Positions 2,601 through 21,401 of a stretch of 21,401 nt of DNA are shown here, piece by piece (position 1 is the stretch's first letter; the number at the start of each line of letters is the position of its first letter). The notes under the pieces are model-generated. The model worked only from the letters and a program-made list of their open reading frames with translations, was not told the origin of the DNA and did not search any database. Made by a program: the position numbers and the translations under genes. Source of the DNA: a virus; the IMG/VR virus record IMGVR_UViG_3300037199_000019, positions 1 through 21,401 of that record; one strand, written 5' to 3'.

Positions 2601-5015
2601 TTAACCCGCGCCGACAGTGTTGTATTGCTGTACCTGCGACAGACCGTCAAGCTCGAGCACGTCATCGGCGGCCATCAGCTCGCGCACGGTGTCGGTTCCG
2701 ATCAGCTCCATCTCGAACGTGCTGTAAGCCTCATCGGGCGGCGTGAGAGTGAATTCCACTTCACCGTCGACCACGATCTCATCGAGCAGCACGCCGTCGC
2801 CATAAAAGCGGGCCACAAGATTGTCGTAACTCTCGGCGCGCACCTGGGCAATGCTGTGGAAAGCCGGATAAGGCTCGAGCCAGAGCTGCGTGCGCCACCG
2901 GAACGTCATCAGTTGCGTGTCGTCGCCCTCGAATTCGTAGATCGTAAGGCCGTCGGTGTAGACGGGCGCTGACGGCGGGATCGGCAGCACCGCCGTATCA
3001 GGCTCGAAATCCTGATCGAGCACGAGGTACATCGTGTCGGTGATCGGATCGACGTAGGCTGCGCTCGCATGGAACGCCATCTCGGCCACACCGAAGCCGC
3101 CCTGGCGCAGGTCGACCGCATAGCAACCGCTATCGGTGCCGTTGTTCCAGAACATGAAATAGATGTCGTCGTGCGCGACGCTGAAGATGCTTGTCGGATC
3201 GAGCGCTTTCCACTGCCGCAGCGTGAATACCTCTTCGGTAAGGTTGCTCGCTTGCCCGATGCCGCGCACCACCATCAACCCCTGCGGCCCGCTGAAGACG
3301 ACACCCAAGCCCGTGATGTAGGCGAAACTGAGCTTGCTCGACGCCGCGTGCGGCACCTCGAACTTGCTCATGCTATAGGCCGATGGGTCGTTGCCTGAAG
3401 CCACGTACAGGAAGCTCTGCGTACCGATCACCACCGTCGTGTCGATATTGCCGATGCCCACGATGTCGGTGTCGGTGTTCAACCGGTAGCTCACCGGCCA
3501 CGCATGTGGGTAGTTCTGTGCGCTAAAGCACAGTTGATTCTTGCTGAAGCCCACCATCACGCCGTTTGGCAGCGCGAGGATGCCTTCGAGATCGCTAGGC
3601 GGTAGCTCCCAGATGTCCGAGGGCAGCACTTCACCAAGCGCGGTGTCGGTGAGCGTATCCACGTAGTCGGCTTGACTGAGCGGGATCTCGGCGACGAACA
3701 GGAACGCAGTGCCCGTGCTGCCGGTGGCTGCCCGGTAGATGCGCTTCGTCTCGACGAAATAATCGCTCTCGCTCACCCCGCTCGGCAGTGATGTCGGTGT
3801 CGTCACCGTCACGGCCACACCATCCGGCCGCAGGATTGTTGCGCTCGGCAGGCTGGGTGCACTCTCTTCGCCCAGGTCATTGACGAACGTGTAGACGTAG
3901 CTCGTCGCGATGTCGGTGATCGTCGTGCCCAGGTTGCCTGCGGCCTGCACGAGGATGTTGTCGTAGTTGACCTGCAGGAAGTCGTTGCCTTTGGCGACCA
4001 TCGGTCCGAACACGCCACCGTAGGTGAAGGTGTTCGTCGTGGTCACTGAGGCGAGCTGCACGCTGCCGAGCGAGATGTTCGCGTCGATCGTCATCGTGCC
4101 ATCGGGGTTGACCGAGAGCGTCGCGTCGACCGTATACCACTGCGACCCGTTGCACGAGTCAGGCACGCCGCTGGTGCCAGAGGCGAGCAGCGAGCCGTTG
4201 CCGCTCGCGAAGCTCGTACCGACAGCAACGCCGATCTCGATCTCGCCGCCGATCGTGCCGTAGCCGAAGATGCGTGGCCCGTCGCCCGTCGAGTCGCATG
4301 CGAACATGAACGGGATCACGAAGCCGGCATTGCCGCCGACATCGCGGACGTTGAAATCCCAGCTCGCGTGAATGACTGTGGCGCCCGACGTGCCGAAGTC
4401 ACGCGAGGCATAGGCCGGTGTCGAGTTGTTGTTATTAGCTTCGACCATGAAGCTCGGCGCCGGGTTGCCGAACGCACCGTCTTGCGTAACCGTCGAGACG
4501 TAGGTGCCTGAGTTCACCTGCCCTGGCGAGATGGCCCAGTTTGTCGACAGGTCCGAGCAATCGTCGTAGATGTCGACCGAGAACGTCGTTGGTGTCGAGT
4601 CCACGCCGACCACGAGCGACGGCACCGTATCGGGCGGCGGCACGCCGAGCAGACGGGTCGTGCCGGGATAGGGGGGTCCACCCGTGGTCGCCAGCGCGAG
4701 GTTCGTGAAGCGCGGCGCGTCGAGCCCGGTCAGATAAGTGCGGTAAGTCGTGTCGCCCGGCACCGTGCCGCGTGCCACATCGACCTGCTGGTCCCATGAG
4801 AGCCACACCTCGTAGGGCGTACCGGCCGCCATCAGCGAGATCGTCTGCACCGGCCCGACGTTCGCGAGCCCTTGCGTCATCGAGAACTGCTGGAACGCAG
4901 TCAGGTCACCCGTGTAGAGGCGCGAGTTCACTGCTGCCTGCGCCGAGCCGGGCGGCAGCAGCCGTGGAGTGATCAGCGGCGTCTCACCACGAAACGAGGT
5001 GACCGAGCGCAGCAT
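2601..5015 (-). CDS. tail nozzle-like structural protein with an inserted jelly-roll-like segment (804 aa)
   Basis: The N-terminus FRGETPLITPRLLPPGSAQA with AAVNSRLYTGDL, then YEVWLSWDQQVDVARG and TYRTYLTGLDAPRF, follows the opening pattern of podophage nozzle (tail tubular protein B-type) proteins. After residue 370 the family pattern resumes: TSYVYTFVNDLGEESAPSLP, KRIYRAATGS, SDIWELPPSDLEGILALPNG, and LCFSAQNYPHAWPVSYRL near the centre. Between them, residues about 148-358 (starting DIYDDCSDLSTNWAIS and ending DFLQVNYDNILVQ) look like an inserted concanavalin-like beta sandwich. The protein would form part of the tail channel below the portal and adaptors. Its start overlaps the upstream LamG-like gene by one base (TGATG). 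Family assignment is from pattern memory, with no search run. A generic structural protein is the alternative. Confidence 0.65.
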   Translation of the reverse strand: MLRSVTSFRGETPLITPRLLPPGSAQAAVNSRLYTGDLTAFQQFSMTQGLANVGPVQTISLMAAGTPYEVWLSWDQQVDVARGTVPGDTTYRTYLTGLDAPRFTNLALATTGGPPYPGTTRLLGVPPPDTVPSLVVGVDSTPTTFSVDIYDDCSDLSTNWAISPGQVNSGTYVSTVTQDGAFGNPAPSFMVEANNNNSTPAYASRDFGTSGATVIHASWDFNVRDVGGNAGFVIPFMFACDSTGDGPRIFGYGTIGGEIEIGVAVGTSFASGNGSLLASGTSGVPDSCNGSQWYTVDATLSVNPDGTMTIDANISLGSVQLASVTTTNTFTYGGVFGPMVAKGNDFLQVNYDNILVQAAGNLGTTITDIATSYVYTFVNDLGEESAPSLPSATILRPDGVAVTVTTPTSLPSGVSESDYFVETKRIYRAATGSTGTAFLFVAEIPLSQADYVDTLTDTALGEVLPSDIWELPPSDLEGILALPNGVMVGFSKNQLCFSAQNYPHAWPVSYRLNTDTDIVGIGNIDTTVVIGTQSFLYVASGNDPSAYSMSKFEVPHAASSKLSFAYITGLGVVFSGPQGLMVVRGIGQASNLTEEVFTLRQWKALDPTSIFSVAHDDIYFMFWNNGTDSGCYAVDLRQGGFGVAEMAFHASAAYVDPITDTMYLVLDQDFEPDTAVLPIPPSAPVYTDGLTIYEFEGDDTQLMTFRWRTQLWLEPYPAFHSIAQVRAESYDNLVARFYGDGVLLDEIVVDGEVEFTLTPPDEAYSTFEMELIGTDTVRELMAADDVLELDGLSQVQQYNTVGAG

Positions 5016-5866
5016 CAGGACGTCGGATAGAAGGCCGGCACCACGTAGCTCGAGCCCGTGTACCGCGCGACGCGATCGGTGATGCGCCAGCGCTTGAAGA
5101 TCCCATAGCCGAAGTTGTTAGGCAGGTACTGAGCGCCGTTGGCGACGCCGCCGAGGGTGACTGCGTTGCCCATCACTGTCGTCCCGATATGCACCGTCTG
5201 CGTCGCTTCGAGCACGCCGTTGACGTACATCCGCATGACGCCGCTCGCATCGCGGGTGATCGCGATCTCGTTGTCCTGTACGAGCGGATAGGGGACCAAA
5301 GTGAGGCCGCCGACCACGCGGTCAATCGGGCCGGAATCGAAAACATTGAAGGCGAGAAACGACCCGGTGCCGTTACCATGGCTGCTCAGGCCCCAGTCGC
5401 CAGGGGATGCAGGCGCGTAGGAAGTGGTTCCCGGCGAGCTGACGGCGCTCACCATGTAGATCGCTTCGTTCGCTTCATACGAGCCGCCGACGCCACCGGA
5501 CTCAGCGGCGTCGATGGAGTTATGCCCTAGCTCGATCGTGAACGGTCCGGCGCCAAAGGCGGGGAGTCCTGACGCCTGCAAGACCGCATTGCTGAATATG
5601 TGACCCGGGACGCTCTGGTAGATCGGTAAGGTGAGGCCGACCCCTGGCTCGGTGCTCGCTTGAATGTGCTCCCATCCGAAGAGCGTCCAGCCGACGCCCT
5701 TGTAGTCCTCCGTAACCGGCATCGAGACGCCTGACGGGTAGCCCGCTGGGTACGTAGGAAACGTGACAGCCTCGTGGAAATTGAGCAGCGAGATGACATC
5801 ATCCCAGTACGGGTCCACACCCCCCGAGTGGGGGATGCGCGCCCCGGCCAGCGACGCGAGACTCAA
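5015..5866 (-). CDS. LamG/concanavalin A-like virion protein (283 aa)
   Basis: The sequence GVDPYWDDVISLLNFHEAV near the N-terminus, followed by alternating strands (FTIELGHNSID, GSFLAFNVFDSG, NEIAITRDASGVMRMYVNG, VLEATQTVHIG), is the hallmark layout of phage LamG-like jelly-roll proteins. The final strand ends GIFKRWRITDRVARYTGSSY, also typical. The annotated start is TTG at 5864-5866. It is supported by a GGAG ribosome site 8 bases upstream and a 4-base overlap with the preceding gene. The next ATG (residue 49) would remove the conserved DPYW strand. It is probably an accessory capsid or tail decoration, or carbohydrate-binding protein. Binding specificity cannot be read from the sequence. 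Confidence 0.75.
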   Translation of the reverse strand: MSLASLAGARIPHSGGVDPYWDDVISLLNFHEAVTFPTYPAGYPSGVSMPVTEDYKGVGWTLFGWEHIQASTEPGVGLTLPIYQSVPGHIFSNAVLQASGLPAFGAGPFTIELGHNSIDAAESGGVGGSYEANEAIYMVSAVSSPGTTSYAPASPGDWGLSSHGNGTGSFLAFNVFDSGPIDRVVGGLTLVPYPLVQDNEIAITRDASGVMRMYVNGVLEATQTVHIGTTVMGNAVTLGGVANGAQYLPNNFGYGIFKRWRITDRVARYTGSSYVVPAFYPTS

Positions 5867-6675
5867 GACGCCAGCTCCAAATCACCGCAAACGATCCACG
5901 TGTTCGTGCGGCGCTTGATGAGCGTCACGGTCGCGAACTGCCCGGCCGAGATCGGCAACAGCCCGCTGCGAACATTCAACGCCACACCGCTCTCGGCTGT
6001 GATGTCGAACGACGCGGCACCCTCTTGGTAAACGATCACCGAAGCACCGTCCGGCAAGTCGACGGTCGGATCGCCGATGTCACCGAGGATGTTGATGTTC
6101 TGCGTGCCAGTGGTGCCGCTGGTCGAGAGACCGTTGCGGTTGTCGGCGAGCACGACCGTGTAGTCGGCCGGCACGTCGCGCCATGCAATATCGAGACTCG
6201 GCAGATCAACCAGAAGCTGAATCGTATCGTCAGCCAGTCCGGTGCCGTGGGTGACCATGAGCGGGCTGATGACGTCGACCACGATGACGAACGGATCGCC
6301 GACATCGATACCATCCTGCTGCCACTGGATGAACGACGAGGGCGGTGTCGACTGCACTTCGACGAGCAGCGTGTCGACCTGATCGCCCGTGCCTCGTTCA
6401 GCAGTGAGGCCGGGGCCGATGTTGACCGTGTTGACGTTCGTGTCGCCGAGCGGTGTGCCGTTAAGCTCCCACTGGATGCCAGAGGCATCGACCGTGATGA
6501 CGTTCGCGTTCTCGCCTGTGCCCCGAGTAGCCGTGAGACCACTCTCGAAATCAACCGTATCGGCGTCGGGGCCGCCGAGATCGACACCCAGGGCTTGCCA
6601 CTGGATGAACTGCGGGAAGCCGTCATCCTCCGCAGGAGGGAAGGTGCCGACCGGGGAGACGCTGAAAGCAGTCAT
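5863..6675 (-). CDS. repeat-containing tail/appendage protein (270 aa)
   Basis: Three tandem copies of a segment of about 43 residues cover residues 23-64, 67-107 and 115-157. Each opens with (F)IQW, has a G-x-D/P-x-G turn, and contains a GTG motif (TATRGTGENAN, TAERGTGDQVD, MVTHGTGLADD). The C-terminal part (166-262: DYTVVLADNRNGL, LPDGASVIVYQEG, SFDITAESGVALNVRSG, ATVTLIKRRTNTWIVCGDL) matches the small beta domain often found at the C-terminus of phage tail and fibre proteins. The start overlaps the adaptor-like gene stop (ATGA). The role is inferred as a tail-associated structural protein. The repeat part is not something I recognise as a named family. Confidence 0.7.
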   Translation of the reverse strand: MTAFSVSPVGTFPPAEDDGFPQFIQWQALGVDLGGPDADTVDFESGLTATRGTGENANVITVDASGIQWELNGTPLGDTNVNTVNIGPGLTAERGTGDQVDTLLVEVQSTPPSSFIQWQQDGIDVGDPFVIVVDVISPLMVTHGTGLADDTIQLLVDLPSLDIAWRDVPADYTVVLADNRNGLSTSGTTGTQNINILGDIGDPTVDLPDGASVIVYQEGAASFDITAESGVALNVRSGLLPISAGQFATVTLIKRRTNTWIVCGDLELAS

Positions 6676-7334
6676 GTGAGCGACCCCATGATGAATTGCC
6701 GCGGGCGAGCACGGCGAGAACCCACGCCGTAGCTGCGCTGTGCATCGGTCTTCGCGTTCGAGATGCCGCTACGGAATTCCTTGCCCTTCGCTAGTGCCGT
6801 CGCCTTGTCGGTCCACGGCATGCCGGGCAGTGCGAGCAGGTACTCGAGCGCGCCAGCCTCGATGTCGTTGCTCCACTTGATCAGCGGCGATTCAGGCACG
6901 TTCACGGCGCCTTCTTTCGGCGCGATGATCAGCGTGATCAGCAGCGGGTAGATGATGTCCGGCGTCGGATACAGCGCGAACTGCCCCTCGGGGATGTACT
7001 GGTAGCAGTTAGGCTGCTGCGCCGGGAAATTCGGGTCCCAGTTCGCTGAATCGCTCACCGTGATCGTGAAGGTCTGCGGCCCGGGCGGCGAGGGCATCGT
7101 CCGCGTGCCTTGCATCGCGAAGATGCCCATGATATCGAGCTGCGGGTCGTTGCCCATCGAATACTGCGGCGTGAGCGGCACTGTCGCGCCGGGAATGTTC
7201 GTGCGCAGCCACTGCGACTGTTGGCAGAACTCACGGTAAGCGCGCATGTAGGCGTGCCGCAGCGTCGTCGAGGGGGCCTTGCGACACACCTGGGCGACGT
7301 TCGCAAGGTAGTCGTTGATGCTGACGATGTTCAT
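6672..7334 (-). CDS. head-tail adaptor-like protein (220 aa)
   Basis: The N-terminus MNIVSINDYLANVAQVCRKA then LRHAYMRAYREFCQQSQWLR matches a pattern seen in podophage connector/adaptor proteins, with 'LR.A...AYREFC..S.WLR' helices followed by a beta region (QQPNCYQYIPEGQFALYPTP, LITLIIAPKEGAVNVP) and a C-terminal helix (IEAGALEYLLALPGMPW). The frame extends upstream to 7412, but the ATG at 7334 is preferred because it gives an ATGA overlap with the preceding gene stop and the extra 26 residues look non-homologous. The position after the capsid genes and before the nozzle-like gene supports a role joining portal to tail. The exact structural slot is uncertain. Confidence 0.7.
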   Translation of the reverse strand: MNIVSINDYLANVAQVCRKAPSTTLRHAYMRAYREFCQQSQWLRTNIPGATVPLTPQYSMGNDPQLDIMGIFAMQGTRTMPSPPGPQTFTITVSDSANWDPNFPAQQPNCYQYIPEGQFALYPTPDIIYPLLITLIIAPKEGAVNVPESPLIKWSNDIEAGALEYLLALPGMPWTDKATALAKGKEFRSGISNAKTDAQRSYGVGSRRARPRQFIMGSLT

Positions 7335-14590: not shown

Positions 14591-15286
14591 TTACGTGCCC
14601 TTACAGCTCGCCGGCAAGAACTTCAGCGGTGTGCCGCCAGCCGCTGTCGGTCCGCAGATCCAGCGCGCGATCTGCGTGCCTACGGTGGGCGCCACGACAG
14701 CGCCGCTCACCGTGGTGCTCGGCACGAACTGGAGGGACGAGCCGTCGATCGTGGCGTCGCCCGTACCTTGCACAACGATCGCGATCACCCCGTTGGCATC
14801 GGTCGAGATGCTGGCGACGTACTTCGTCACGTTCGGCCCGGCGTTCTCGCAGCCCCAGGCGCCGGCTGCCGGCAGCGTCGATGCCGACTCGACGGCCTCG
14901 GTGATCGTGTTGCGGCAGGTACTGGATGCGACGAGCGCCTCAGTGAGCTTGGCCCGCTTGGTGTAGTCCTGATACGCGGGCAGCGCGAGGGCCGCAAGGA
15001 TGCCGATGATCGCGATGACGATCATCAGCTCGATGAGGGTGAAGCCGGCCTGTTTTGTCGAGGGTTCGTTTTCTTCGTCGGGCGCGTCGTCATCGCCTTG
15101 CAGAATCGCCAACGCATTCTTGGCGTAGAACGTGGTCCCCGGTGTTGCTTCTGCCCGGATTTTCATGTCCGCGACTAGCTCTTCGTCGGTCATGTGCGCT
15201 GTCCTCGCAGCATCAGCCTTTACCTTCGCCGCGACTTCAGCGCTGCGACGAGCCATACGTTGCTCTTCAGTCTCGTTTTGTTGCAT
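14591..15286 (-). CDS. type IV pilin (PilA-like) with an 81-residue N-terminal extension
   Basis: Residues 81-231 are a complete type IVa major-pilin core. The prepilin peptidase site is KQAG|FTLIE, with Phe as mature residue 1 and Glu at mature position 5. A hydrophobic helix ([16 protein letters not shown]) leads into [20 protein letters not shown]. Four cysteines lie at residues 124, 146, 211 and 228, and the last pair would form the C-terminal D-loop (ARWIC...FLPASCKG). The mature length of about 150 residues is normal. The leader is not normal: residues 1-80 are a charged helical region ([35 protein letters not shown]) ending in an acidic linker ([12 protein letters not shown]). The ATG at 15286 is chosen for its GGAG site 8 bases upstream; a GTG at 15346 has no such site and would overlap the upstream gene. 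The neighbours are the terminase and portal genes. A role in altering host pili is inferred only. Confidence 0.85.
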
Positions 15287-15318
15287 GGAAATCTCCGATT
15301 GCAGTTGGGGTGACGCAG

Positions 15319-15333
15319 TGTATCGACTGATAC
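15319..15333 (-). promoter_or_regulatory. GTATC-AGTC-GATAC inverted repeat upstream of the pilin fusion
   Basis: On the minus strand this reads GTATCAGTCGATACA: 5-bp arms with a 4-base spacer. It fills the gap just after the stop of the upstream 67-aa gene and ends 32 bases before the pilin-fusion ATG. The identical 15-mer occurs on the plus strand at 18880-18894, 36 bases before the first early gene, in the same orientation relative to its gene. A regulator binding site is the likeliest reading. Confidence 0.5.
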
Positions 15334-15537
15334 TCAGCGCGTCCACCCGAAGCGGGCGATACGCTGCGCCAGCACCGACGAGTAGAGCTGCATCAAGCCG
15401 CTCTGCCGCAGCAACAGCTTCTGATCGATCTCGTCGAGATCGCTGAAAGCTGCTGCGCAGGTGAACGCCTGCAGCGCCTTGATCTTCGCATCCAGTTCGT
15501 CCTTCTCCTTGACGACGCGCTGCTGGTACTCTTCCAT
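15334..15537 (-). CDS. crAss001_48-related small phage protein (67 aa)
   Basis: The ATG at 15535-15537 has AGGAG 5 bases upstream, overlapping the large-terminase stop. A GTG at 15558 would extend it into the terminase gene without a ribosome site. The product [20 protein letters not shown] ... [20 protein letters not shown], ending [14 protein letters not shown], matches the compact two-helix pattern (EYQQRV..EK.ELD.K, then LL.RQ...M..YS..L..RI) of small proteins usually labelled crAss001_48-related. Such genes are widespread in phages and their function is unknown. It is translationally adjacent to the terminase. Confidence 0.75.
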
Positions 15538-18082: not shown

Positions 18083-18440
18083 TTTCCAAATTCCTTGAAA
18101 ATATTTTCGTGCAAAAAATCACGACTCGACTTGCGAGCCGAACAAACATTCGATCAACCGCTAAACCCTTCGATCACCCCATAAACCATGAAAAGTTCAA
18201 CTTGCTTGGCGTTACGGTGGGGGCGCACGAGGGGGTATGGCCCCTCCTACCCAAAGACGGTATTACCACCGTGGCACCCCACCCCCGGGGCTCTCCTTCG
18301 CGTCCCTCCCCGCCAATCAAGTCACGTCGTCACCCTCCACTACGCGCCAAGCTCATCGAAGCGTGCGATACCCCGATAGGGAACCAAACTAACCGGGCGT
18401 AGATTGCTTTTCATGTGCGCGGTTACCATGTTGGTTGCCA
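18083..18440. other. intergenic leader of the late packaging operon
   Basis: I see no convincing gene in these 358 bases. A short plus-strand open frame here has no ribosome site and an implausible composition. The right half is C-rich (about 18275-18320) and holds a small inverted repeat, GAGGGG (18229-18234) with CCCCTC (18241-18246). The left 60 bases are AT-rich next to the small-terminase start. It is the natural place for the 3' end of the 104-aa gene transcript, a late promoter and possibly the packaging site, but no -10/-35 pair is convincing. Confidence 0.5.
18097..18108. promoter_or_regulatory. perfect AT-rich palindrome before the small terminase
   Basis: GAAAATATTTTC is a perfect 12-bp palindrome ending 15 bases before the small-terminase ATG, in an AT-rich patch of otherwise GC-rich DNA. 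It may be an operator or an AT-rich part of a late promoter. Confidence 0.3.
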
Positions 18441-18755
18441 CTATTGGACGGTCGGCGATGCCTGGGCAATGAGTCGCAGACTGTCGCGCCGCTTGGCGTT
18501 CCAATCGACGATGATCTTTTGCACGGCCGCAGTCGCGCTCGCCCAGTTCGTGCCCTCTACTTCATGCATGCACCGATCGGCAATTAGGCTTTCGATTAGC
18601 TTGGCAGTGAAGGCCTTGGCGCAGCCTAGCGTGTCTTCGATCGGTTCAAATTGACGCCAAGCGATTGACTTAGACACGCCACTGTCAAAAGTGACAATGA
18701 AGCCTCCTATCGACGCGTCGTCGTTCGTCGCTGATTCGGCAGGGTAGAGGTTCAT
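18441..18755 (-). CDS. hypothetical protein (104 aa)
   Basis: The ATG at 18755 has AGGA about 10 bases upstream. The sequence begins MNLYPAESATNDDASIGGFI, with a short beta segment (GGFIVTFDSGVSKSIAWRQF) and a helical C-terminus (AKAFTAKLIESLIADRCMHE, VQKIIVDWNAKRRDSLRLIA). It has no membrane segment or signal peptide. It is the first minus-strand gene from the divergent spacer and faces the early operon, a location often used by regulators, but no DNA-binding motif is evident. Composition is closer to the early genes than to the GC-rich late genes. Function unknown. Confidence 0.65.
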   Translation of the reverse strand: MNLYPAESATNDDASIGGFIVTFDSGVSKSIAWRQFEPIEDTLGCAKAFTAKLIESLIADRCMHEVEGTNWASATAAVQKIIVDWNAKRRDSLRLIAQASPTVQ

Positions 18756-18930
18756 CGCTTGTTTTTCCTAAAAGGGAAGAGCTTGGCGAGCTTTAGCGTG
18801 TTTCGTGGATGGTTTGCAGCGACTTCATGCCGAACTATTCTAAGCGCACTGCAAAATCTTACATCACAATCATGGAGCTGTATCAGTCGATACAGGGCAA
18901 ACGCTGCAACATCTTACATAGGGCAACATC
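18756..18930. promoter_or_regulatory. divergent regulatory region of the early operon
   Basis: This 175-bp AT-richer spacer separates the two transcription directions. A possible plus-strand promoter is TTGCAG (18814-18819), 16 bases, then TATTCT (18836-18841), which is a weak match to sigma-70. Downstream of it lie the inverted repeats listed separately, which would sit in the transcribed leader or over the promoter. Confidence 0.4.
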
Positions 18931-18945
18931 ATGCAAAATCTTGCA
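18850..18945. promoter_or_regulatory. three TGCAA-N4-TT(G/A)CA operator-like repeats
   Basis: Copies are at 18850-18863 (TGCAAAATCTTACA), 18905-18918 (TGCAACATCTTACA) and 18932-18945 (TGCAAAATCTTGCA). The last is a perfect 5-bp-arm inverted repeat overlapping the first codons of the 70-aa gene. Spacings are 55 and 27 bases. The pattern resembles binding sites of a dimeric regulator repressing the early operon. The regulator is not identified in this window. Confidence 0.5.
18879..18894 (+). promoter_or_regulatory. TGTATC-AGTC-GATACA inverted repeat upstream of the early operon
   Basis: Perfect 6-bp arms surround a 4-base spacer, 36 bases before the ATG of the 70-aa gene. Fifteen of its bases (18880-18894) are identical to the element upstream of the pilin fusion at 15319-15333 on the minus strand. 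Confidence 0.5.
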
Positions 18946-19143
18946 CTGACTCGCTACATCGATGCAATGCGCAACACTGATAAGCGCGCCTACGCTCAAG
19001 CGGTCGCATCCTACGGCCCGGGATCAAAGCAAGCTGAAGCCTTGCGGCCGACACTAAGCTACATGGGCGCGCAAGCGGTACGGATGTCCATCGCTGACAT
19101 CGTAGCGCACATTGACGCAGGCACGGAAAACCGCAACGCCTAG
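18931..19143 (+). CDS. small hypothetical early protein (70 aa)
   Basis: The ATG at 18931 has AGGG about 8 bases upstream. The product is MQNLALTRYIDAMRNTDKRA, then YAQAVASYGPGSKQAEALRP and a C-terminal helix (VRMSIADIVAHIDAGTENRN). It is helical and soluble, with no recognised domain. It is the first gene of the plus-strand operon, and its own start codon lies within the third operator-like repeat, suggesting tight regulation. Function unknown. Confidence 0.65.
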   Translation: MQNLALTRYIDAMRNTDKRAYAQAVASYGPGSKQAEALRPTLSYMGAQAVRMSIADIVAHIDAGTENRNA

Positions 19144-19147
19144 ATCT

Positions 19148-19194
19148 CATCGGCAAGGGCAACAAGCCTTTGCCGATGCGCAACCCCGCGCATC
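19148..19194 (+). promoter_or_regulatory. overlapping alternative hairpins before the DUF932 gene
   Basis: Hairpin 1 pairs 19148-19159 with 19167-19178 (CATCGGCAAGGG/CCTTTGCCGATG, 12 pairs with one G-U). Hairpin 2 pairs GATGCGC (19175-19181) with GCGCATC (19188-19194). The two share GATG (19175-19178), so they cannot form together. The arrangement mirrors the repeats at 20351-20429 and 20745-20818. Confidence 0.5.
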
Positions 19195-19219
19195 GCAACC
19201 GTTCACACAAGGGTCAATC

Positions 19220-20353
19220 ATGAGTCACGAAATCACTATCCGCGAGTCAGGCCTTGCCGAGTTCGCCTATGTCGGCGAACAAGGATGGCACAAGCTAGGC
19301 CAATCCATCGAAGCCTATCTGGCAACGATCGGCCTGTCAGTCGGCACCGCGTCGCCCGAACAGATGGAGCACGCATGGGCAAAGTGCGCGGGCATGGATT
19401 GGAAAATCCTTCGCTCCAAAGTGCGCTACTTCGCAGATCGCGAAGGCAAGGATCAAAGAACCATCGACGATGCGCACGTGCTCATGCGCAGCGATACGGG
19501 CGCCGATCTGGGCATCGTCAGCGACAAATACAAGACAGTGCAACCCGCGCAAGTGCTCGCCTTTTTTCATGAGCTTTCCGCTGCGCTTGGCGTGAAGCTC
19601 GAAACAGCCGGAACGCTCTTCGGCGGTAAGAAGTTCTACGCAACAGCTCGCATCGGCGGAGAGTACATCTTTGGCAACAGCGGCGACAAATTGCGTCCGT
19701 ATCTGTTGCTTGCTACATCCTGCGATGGTTCGGCAAAGACTACGGCGCGCGACATCATCACGCGTGTCGTCTGTGACAACACAATGTCTGCCGCGATGAG
19801 CGAAGCGACAAAACATGTAGTGAATCTGTCGCATCGCTCAGTCTTCGATGCTCAGAAAATCAGGGATCAGCTCGGCATCGTTGACACGCTCGCTACCGCG
19901 CAGGCCTGCGAGTCTTTGACTCAAGTGCGCATGAGCGACGACAAAGCATGCGACTTTGTGCGTAATCTGCTCCGTCCTGAAGATGCCGCAAAGAAGGCCG
20001 CGACGATCGCTGAAGCTCAGGCCAAAACGGCGCGCATCCTGGCGTCTGCCTCGGGTTCGCAAGACTTCGCGCGTCTGCTCGGCGGCACAGTGAAGCTCGC
20101 CGATGTTGCGACCGACGAGAAGCGCGCACCCAAGGGCGAGGCCGAGATACTGCGTCTGTTCCGTGGCGCCGCGATCGGTAGCAATCTGTCGGGCGTGCGT
20201 GGCACCGCATGGGGCATGTTGAACGCAGTCACGGAGTACGTCGACCATAAGGCGAGCGCGAAGACTGACTCGCATCGCATGCAGTCGGCATTGTTCAACG
20301 GCGGCGACGAGCTGAAGACATCCGCATTCGAACAGCTTCTCGCGATGCGCTAG
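19220..20353 (+). CDS. DUF932 phage/plasmid-like protein (377 aa)
   Basis: The sequence follows the DUF932 (TIGR03299-type) pattern: the N-terminal block AYVGEQGWHKLGQSI, then HAWAKCAGMDWKILRSKVRY, LGIVSDKYKTVQPAQVLAFF, the central LRPYLLLATSCDGSAKTTAR, ITRVVCDNTMSAAMSE and the C-terminal SNLSGVRGTAWGMLNAVTEY, VDHKASAKTDSHRMQSALFN. The frame is open upstream to 19112, but the ATG at 19220 has AAGGGT 6 bases upstream, and the added residues would read through the hairpins. These proteins occur widely in phages and plasmids, often near recombination genes. The biochemical role is not established. It is the largest gene of the early operon. Confidence 0.88.
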   Translation: MSHEITIRESGLAEFAYVGEQGWHKLGQSIEAYLATIGLSVGTASPEQMEHAWAKCAGMDWKILRSKVRYFADREGKDQRTIDDAHVLMRSDTGADLGIVSDKYKTVQPAQVLAFFHELSAALGVKLETAGTLFGGKKFYATARIGGEYIFGNSGDKLRPYLLLATSCDGSAKTTARDIITRVVCDNTMSAAMSEATKHVVNLSHRSVFDAQKIRDQLGIVDTLATAQACESLTQVRMSDDKACDFVRNLLRPEDAAKKAATIAEAQAKTARILASASGSQDFARLLGGTVKLADVATDEKRAPKGEAEILRLFRGAAIGSNLSGVRGTAWGMLNAVTEYVDHKASAKTDSHRMQSALFNGGDELKTSAFEQLLAMR

Positions 20354-20429
20354 CGCGCGAGGGTCAACGGCTCTAACCGGCGCGTTGACCCTTGCGCACT
20401 GTCGCGCAAGTCAACCGAGGCTCATCATG
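20351..20429 (+). repeat. stop-to-start intercistronic repeat, copy 1
   Basis: The element begins with the stop codon of the DUF932 gene and ends with the ATG of the 106-aa gene. Hairpin 1 pairs 20355-20369 with 20383-20397 (15 pairs, one G-U). An alternative hairpin 2 pairs CTTGCGC (20391-20397) with GCGCAAG (20404-20410) and competes for the same arm. The first 14 bases and the 33 bases from 20388 are identical to copy 2, then one mismatch, then TCATCATG. It contains the GAGG ribosome site. Confidence 0.75.
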
Positions 20430-20747
20430 CAAAAACTGACATTCGACGAGGCGCTAGAGCGTATCGCAGACGAGCGCAGCGTAACGCGCGACGAGGTGCA
20501 AGCGCGCGCATTGCATCGCCTCGTCTGGGTTGCCGAATGGCACATTCCCGGATGTCTGAGCGAGTCTCAGTGCATCCTCACGACGAAACGCGACGCCATC
20601 GCTGAAGCGCTCGAAATGTGCGGGCACGTTCACGGCGCCCGCGCCGATCTTGAGCGCTACGGCCGCACCGATCGCGTTGCCGAGGATGCCTATGTCTCGA
20701 TGGCAATTACAACAATCCACAGACACTACCTCAGCGAGCTGCTCTAG
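20427..20747 (+). CDS. hypothetical early protein (106 aa)
   Basis: The ATG at 20427 has GAGG with 6-base spacing inside the repeated spacer. The frame extends to 20385, but those codons lie in the hairpin. The product starts MQKLTFDEALERIADERSVT, with DEVQARALHRLVWVAEWHIP, GCLSESQCILTTKRDAIAEA and a C-terminal helix (MAITTIHRHYLSELL). It is mixed alpha/beta, soluble, with two Cys in the first half and one Cys in CGHVHGARADLERYG. No known family is recognised. It is probably an early host-takeover or accessory protein by position only. Confidence 0.75.
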   Translation: MQKLTFDEALERIADERSVTRDEVQARALHRLVWVAEWHIPGCLSESQCILTTKRDAIAEALEMCGHVHGARADLERYGRTDRVAEDAYVSMAITTIHRHYLSELL

Positions 20748-20818
20748 CGCGCGAGGGTGAGTGCTTTCGAGCGCTCACCCTTGCGCACTGTCGCGCAAGT
20801 CAACCGAGGATCATCATG
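20745..20818 (+). repeat. stop-to-start intercistronic repeat, copy 2
   Basis: The element runs from the stop of the 106-aa gene to the ATG of the next gene. Hairpin 1 pairs 20749-20765 with 20770-20786 (17 pairs, two G-U, TTCG loop). Its inner arm differs from copy 1, yet both sides changed together so pairing is kept. The alternative hairpin pairs 20780-20786 with 20793-20799, exactly as in copy 1. Confidence 0.75.
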
Positions 20819-21401
20819 AGCCAAAAATTCTACGCATCGCCTAGCGATACGTTCACGTCGCCGAACGGCGCTATCGGGCATCGCCCGGGCGGCGCGTTCG
20901 ACTGCCTCGGCCCGTATGCCAAGGTGCGCAACTGCCCGATTGATGGGACCGATCTGCGCCGCACGTGCTACGCATCGGGGTACGCTGACACTGCGTTTTC
21001 AATCCCTGCGAACACCCGTTTTCGCGGGCATCACATCGGAGGCTATTTCACGAACGACGACGAGGGCATCGTTTTCAACGCGCACCGCGCGCATTGGCAA
21101 ACCCTAGGCATCCTCGCACCGTGGACTAGCTCATCCGGCCGGATCATTCTCGACATCCGCAAGGATGATGCGCAGCGCTGCGCCACGCCCGGCAAGCCTG
21201 CCGATAGCGAGGTTTTCGCACTGTCGCAGCGAGAGTACATGCGCGAACAGTTCGCCCGTGTCATCGACGCGGACATCCGCGCCGAGCTTGCCGAGCTGGG
21301 TGCATGGGATACCTCAGAGCTTGCCGACAAATTCCAAAACCGAATCCGTTTGCTATGGGTCGCATGCTGCGACATCCGCGAAGCCCTGCACGCCGAGGTG
21401 C
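20816..21401 (+). CDS. hypothetical early phage protein, cut by right edge (195 codons seen)
   Basis: The frame is open from the ATG at 20816, with GAGG 6-7 bases upstream, to the window end. It begins MSQKFYASPSDTFTSPNGAI, then GHRPGGAFDCLGPYAKVRNC, CPIDGTDLRRTCYASGYADT and a later segment FTNDDEGIVFNAHRAHWQTL. The central part has helices (LSQREYMREQFARVIDADIR, ELAELGAWDTSELADKFQNR). Several Cys occur (CLGPY, RNCP, RTCYASG, VACCD), but no clear zinc-finger spacing. I do not recognise the family. It belongs to the early operon by spacing and shared intercistronic element. Confidence 0.75.
   Translation, partial: MSQKFYASPSDTFTSPNGAIGHRPGGAFDCLGPYAKVRNCPIDGTDLRRTCYASGYADTAFSIPANTRFRGHHIGGYFTNDDEGIVFNAHRAHWQTLGILAPWTSSSGRIILDIRKDDAQRCATPGKPADSEVFALSQREYMREQFARVIDADIRAELAELGAWDTSELADKFQNRIRLLWVACCDIREALHAEV

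Follow-up and report, generated by a model that had tools for sequence, protein, structure and literature searches.

Gene organization of the rightward operon

The window, by which we mean the whole stretch of DNA that was analyzed, is the entire viral record of 21,401 bases and is possibly a fragment. Its terminase large subunit is approximately 42% identical to the Salmonella phage epsilon15 protein and shares 46% identity with its best match, and its structural genes are found among the leftward genes. An open reading frame (ORF) with a prepilin-type segment at 14591-15346 (minus strand) is placed between the portal-like and terminase genes. It matches pilin models (NCBIfam, 2e-18; PHROG pilin, 7e-11) and, judging from these matches, is a phage-encoded type IV pilin-like protein.

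A rightward operon starts near position 18931. It begins with a 70-aa ORF (18931..19143, plus strand), which gave no Pfam or PHROG match, and continues with a 377-aa DUF932/TIGR03299 gene (19220..20353, plus strand) and a 106-aa gene (20427..20747, plus strand), which has homologues in several viral contigs and gave no match in a search of genome contigs. The last gene (20816..21401, plus strand; phrog_14450) is cut off and continues past the end of the record. The non-coding region 5' of the operon (18700-18930) is nearly identical to that of the related contig L009. It holds a palindrome-like sequence, GTATCAGTCGATAC, and two TGCAA(A/C)ATCTTACAT repeats, and from these features it is probably a promoter/operator region.

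Anatomy of the stop-to-start elements

The spacers between these genes, here called elements A, B and C, follow one plan, in which a module of approximately 70 nt (64-77 nt) spans the distance from the stop codon of one gene to the start of the next. Hairpin 1 begins 0-10 nt past the stop codon, often carries a UNCG loop, and is kept as a structure and not as a sequence. Hairpin 2 abuts or overlaps hairpin 1 and retains a UGCGC...GCGCA-like stem; it is followed by a C/A-rich stretch (often CAACC), the SD sequence and ATG.

All three elements lie on the plus strand. Element A (19144..19219), located 5' of the DUF932 gene, has a 13-bp hairpin 1 (19148-19178, loop AACAA) and an 8-bp hairpin 2 (19174-19195), with positions 19174-19178 common to both, and the SD AAGGG at 19209-19213. 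Element B (20354..20426) fills the spacer from the DUF932 gene to the 106-aa gene. Its hairpin 1 (20355-20397) is a 15-bp stem of GCGCGAGGGTCAACG/CGTTGACCCTTGCGC with a 13-nt loop, its hairpin 2 (20391-20410) is a 7-bp stem whose 5' arm (20391-20397) is common to hairpin 1, and its SD is GAGG (20417-20420). Element C (20748..20815), between the 106-aa gene and the next gene, has a 17-bp hairpin 1 with a UUCG loop (20749-20786), a 7-bp hairpin 2 (20780-20799) whose 5' arm (20780-20786) again belongs to hairpin 1, and the SD GAGGA (20806-20810).

A previous sequence-only reading of this DNA had described B and C as near-identical at both ends, with an inner stem that differs on both arms and keeps its pairing, and the analysis confirmed this description. 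The two spacers share exact ends, TAGCGCGCGAGGGT (14 nt) and ACCCTTGCGCACTGTCGCGCAAGTCAACCGAGG (33 nt), with a differing interior, and the inner stems differ in their letters and remain paired (15 bp for B, 17 bp for C). It also holds that the 3' arm of hairpin 1 serves a second hairpin, given that in B and C its last 7 nt (CTTGCGC) are the 5' arm of hairpin 2 and pair with GCGCAAG beside the ribosome site. Element A, which has the same plan in other letters, is a third copy that was absent from the earlier reading. When compared with dinucleotide shuffles, the folding energies gave z-values of -5.1 (B) and -4.8 (C), and none of 200 shuffles was as good. Since homologues establish where the 106-aa gene starts and L009 establishes the C-terminus of DUF932, spacers B and C are non-coding. 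The start segment ATGCAAAA(A/T)CT is common to seemingly unrelated genes (18931 and 20427 in the window; 3739 in L009), and thus the conserved initiation region may extend into the coding sequence.

Copies in related phages and a gene replacement

A search for further copies, which had been suggested by the earlier reading, yielded not only element A but also two copies in each of two relatives beside the same DUF932 gene. In L009, whose DUF932 is 84% identical, one copy lies on each side of the gene; in L032 (75% identical), the copies occupy successive gaps 3' of it. The tight aligned family therefore consists of seven copies from three phages, namely the window, L009 and L032, all in a single orientation and all stop-to-start, and the GG, CC, TGCGCA and GCGC positions are invariant among them. 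A model scan of these three sequences found no more strong sense-strand copies, and the exact core TTGCGCACTGTCGCGCAAGTC was absent from every other viral contig searched.

Comparison of the window with L009 also revealed a gene replacement. The two sequences are nearly identical over window positions 18700-18940 up to ACATCATGCAAAA (ATGCAAAA), where unrelated ORFs begin, and the match resumes at the stop codon and runs through element A into DUF932. In other words, the segment between the identical start segment and the stop codon, which in the window is the 70-aa ORF, is an unrelated gene in L009. The proposal that the elements form a cassette boundary for gene exchange is thus supported by one precise replacement ending exactly at element A, the evidence being one event in one genome pair.

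Spacers of similar architecture were found in three more distant phages. With the model R1, scores of 6e-6 for L042 and 7e-7 for L049 were obtained, both next to DUF932, and both contigs had been left out of its building set. A pair of near-identical stop-to-start spacers, of another sequence type, is present in L049 and likewise in L004; between the two types the outer stem is similar, whereas the inner stem is not. For the copy 3' of DUF932 in L042, the automatic spacer scan did not report hairpin 2. The spacers of L004, L042 and L049 are look-alikes by architecture, recognized with looser criteria than the seven aligned copies.

Other searches gave little. No match to the region was obtained by blastn among phage and plasmid records, and in 300 bacterial genomes, from the order to which a Dechloromonas MAG belongs, there were weak matches only, which were judged from their sequence to be chance. 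A pattern match in L014 was likewise rejected as chance, as it sits within an apparent coding sequence. A scan for triple arms, in which each arm had to match exactly over 5 to 6 bases, separated the signal poorly, and therefore a two-hairpin search was adopted.

We also considered how common the parts of the element are. Single post-stop hairpins were found in 16 of 145 phage gaps, against 2.7 expected by shuffling, and in 33 of 85 DUF932-flanking spacers, so that part of the anatomy is ordinary. The all-gaps base rate is rough, because overlapping ORFs probably confuse a simple gene caller in GC-rich DNA; only 145 gaps were called, and most of the known copies were missed.

Covariation and sense-strand pairing

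In the seven-copy alignment, 92% of the hairpin 1 cells are paired, and both sides have changed in nine of the 16 pairs. None of 500 shuffles reached any of the five covariation measures, and the pairing fell to 34-41% when the partner was slid by one column. The sequence of hairpin 2 varies less; both sides have changed in two of its seven pairs, and these changes amount mostly to a single contrast that sets B/C apart from the A-type copies. In an independent scan of viral contigs that specified only the outer arms (CTCATCGG-N14-30-CCGATGCGCA), the four stop-to-start matches in L009 and L032 had 7-9 further inner pairs each, compared with 0-2 in the 17 other matches.

The pairing also carries a strand signature. 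A helix search that covered 13 copies and penalized every non-Watson-Crick pair equally left imperfect positions comprising 14 G-T/T-G, one C-A and two others, of which the independent ones are nearer ten in number because several copies share positions by descent. Given that a G-U pair in plus-strand RNA corresponds to C-A on the other strand, this excess fits pairing of the plus-strand RNA. In addition, of the eight tetraloops among the copies six are UNCG, compared with 11 among the 269 remaining long tetraloop hairpins of the loci examined. The G-U excess and the UNCG loops together indicate that it is the sense-strand RNA that folds. The earlier idea of a structured RNA is therefore supported by the covariation, the G-U excess, the UNCG loops and the copies in relatives, and hairpin 1 of the aligned family is, on such sequence evidence, almost certainly an RNA structure.

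Overlap of the two hairpins

The earlier reading had further described the two hairpins as mutually exclusive and had proposed an RNA switch as one possibility. Mutual exclusion holds strictly in B and C, where 7 nt are shared, and does not extend across the family, as the hairpins overlap by 5 nt in A and in both L009 copies and by 2 nt in the L032 copies. We compared predicted folds in which the full hairpin 1 was forced with folds containing the inner hairpin 1 and hairpin 2. B and C are predicted to favor the full hairpin 1 by approximately 7 kcal/mol, whereas A and the L009 copies are predicted to favor both hairpins together by 2-3.5 kcal/mol. Since both the shared segment and the preferred state vary among copies, a switch is not retained as a conserved property.

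A switch coupled to termination was considered separately. In such a scheme, a ribosome at the stop codon would cover the 5' arm of hairpin 1, hairpin 2 would form, and the next initiation would be coupled to termination. Hairpin 1 does begin within the footprint of a terminating ribosome, its 3' arm doubles as a hairpin 2 arm, and when such a ribosome was imitated by masking 12 nt behind the stop codon, B and C flipped to hairpin 2 in the predictions. Against the scheme, only 2 nt are shared in L032, and A and the L009 copies are predicted to form both hairpins already. The predicted SD openness is moderate (0.24-0.73) and shows no consistent direction with the hairpin state; under masking it changed from 0.73 to 0.45 in B, from 0.56 to 0.50 in C and from 0.33 to 0.52 in A. 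Because these shifts are inconsistent, an SD-directed switch is not supported as a conserved feature, although B and C by themselves may have one, and we consider the termination-coupled scheme quite unlikely. A portable three-arm switch, which phages would copy and diversify as a standard junction for swappable genes, seems very unlikely too; in it, a terminating ribosome would open hairpin 1, and hairpin 2 would then govern either initiation at the next cistron or its decay.

Comparison with known intercistronic structures

RNase III sites lie between the early genes of T7, and these resemble the present elements as structured intercistronic spacers in one operon; the stems here are shorter and cleavage here is putative. 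Synthetic tunable intergenic regions carry two hairpins that flank an RNase E site. They likewise place two hairpins between coding regions, the second before the ribosome site, but the present elements are natural, and their abutting or overlapping hairpins leave no room for a cleavage site. Tuerk et al. in 1988 reportedly described CUUCGG intercistronic hairpins in T4, which are similar in being very stable phage-mRNA hairpins with UUCG-type loops. The elements described here differ in adding a second, partly overlapping hairpin, in that the loop is not always UNCG, and in the repetition of whole spacers within one operon. The UNCG loop occurs in C and several relatives and not in A (AACAA) or B (13-nt loop). 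That UUCG-capped hairpins are known from T4 mRNA is also stated in PMC3972237, which cites that study.

The start-associated repeats (SAS/ESAS) of cluster K mycobacteriophages, to which the earlier reading had pointed, are only in part comparable. They too lie just 5' of non-structural gene starts and have inverted repeats and a variable center. However, their discoverers report that the inverted repeats do not generally support RNA pairing (PMC3203893): departures within the 17-bp inverted repeats of the ESAS do not favor such pairing, whereas the pairing in the present elements is kept by compensatory changes. The 13-bp SAS at the start codon (GGGATAGGAGCCC) was not found in our elements, in which the sequence 5' of ATG is CAACCGAGG(C/A)TCATC or similar. 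Rfam gave no match at E up to 1 for 18500-21401, and none at the gathering score for the window and three relatives. Intercistronic phage hairpins as such are already known; what sets the present elements apart is the overlapping pair.

Alternative explanations and proposed function

Cleavage of hairpin 1 by RNase III or another double-strand nuclease, which would divide the polycistronic RNA into messages of one gene each, in the manner of the intercistronic sites of T7, is possible though unlikely. The elements do lie between genes of one operon and have a long near-perfect stem whose structure is kept while its sequence varies. However, stems of 13-17 bp are below the length of typical strong RNase III sites, and no conserved internal loop or bulge is present in the aligned family. 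A transcription terminator or attenuator, as raised in the earlier reading, is highly improbable. GC-rich hairpins do sit directly after the stop codons, and some distant DUF932 phages have terminator-like hairpins at this place, but no U-tract follows hairpin 1 or hairpin 2 in A, B or C, and a terminator scan of 18400-21401 found no plus-strand site. GC-rich stems alone terminate inefficiently.

We give very little credence to a DNA-level element without any RNA role, such as a palindromic operator, a recombination site or template-switching stems. Quasipalindrome correction can keep inverted repeats matched, and the precise gene replacement at the boundary would suit such an element; the excess of G-T over C-A and the UNCG loops on the sense strand argue against it, as does the invariable stop-to-start orientation of the aligned family. 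That the sequence-conserved hairpin 2 is an RNA operator, to which a protein of the phage or the host would bind to repress or activate a group of genes, is hardly credible. UGCGC/GCGCA is kept in hairpin 2 while hairpin 1 varies freely, but no candidate protein was identified, the copies are few, and the conservation of hairpin 2 may reflect shared descent.

We instead propose that the elements act post-transcriptionally as insulators and stabilizers. Hairpin 1 would keep the upstream message from pairing with the ribosome site that follows and would shield that message from 3' exonucleases, and hairpin 2 would cap the downstream leader while leaving the ribosome site open, so that each cistron could initiate independently. 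With the same junction on each gene, genes could be exchanged at the boundary without loss of expression. As judged from sequence patterns, the elements probably insulate the message of one gene from that of the next and mark points of gene swapping; for the full description, a repeated RNA insulator/stabilizer and ribosome-site module, we put the chances at about even. Stop-to-start junctions are where gene exchange between phages must leave expression intact, and few natural junction modules have been described so far. The combination of a repeated junction of conserved structure with a precise gene replacement makes a link between RNA insulation and gene mosaicism directly testable, and the elements would add to the small number of natural intercistronic parts that covary strongly.

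Other repeats in the relatives

Several other repeats were observed in the related contigs. L024 has two repeated spacers (approximately 3943-4000 and 4330-4395) containing TGGCACGCTCCCTGCATG, which is sigma-54 promoter-like; these spacers are of another kind and were rejected as copies of the present elements. A similar sequence, TGGCACGCTTTATGCTTG, occurs near 2770 in L004. In L009, AGGTGCAACCATG is found 5' of three genes (5433-5445, 5648-5660 and 6665-6677) as a start-associated repeat that differs in kind from the hairpin elements. Finally, highly repetitive ORFs lie 3' of DUF932 in L032 (3350-3600; GNAQVYGNAQVYG-like) and L010 (5000-5200; GDVSGLRGYVTGL-like).
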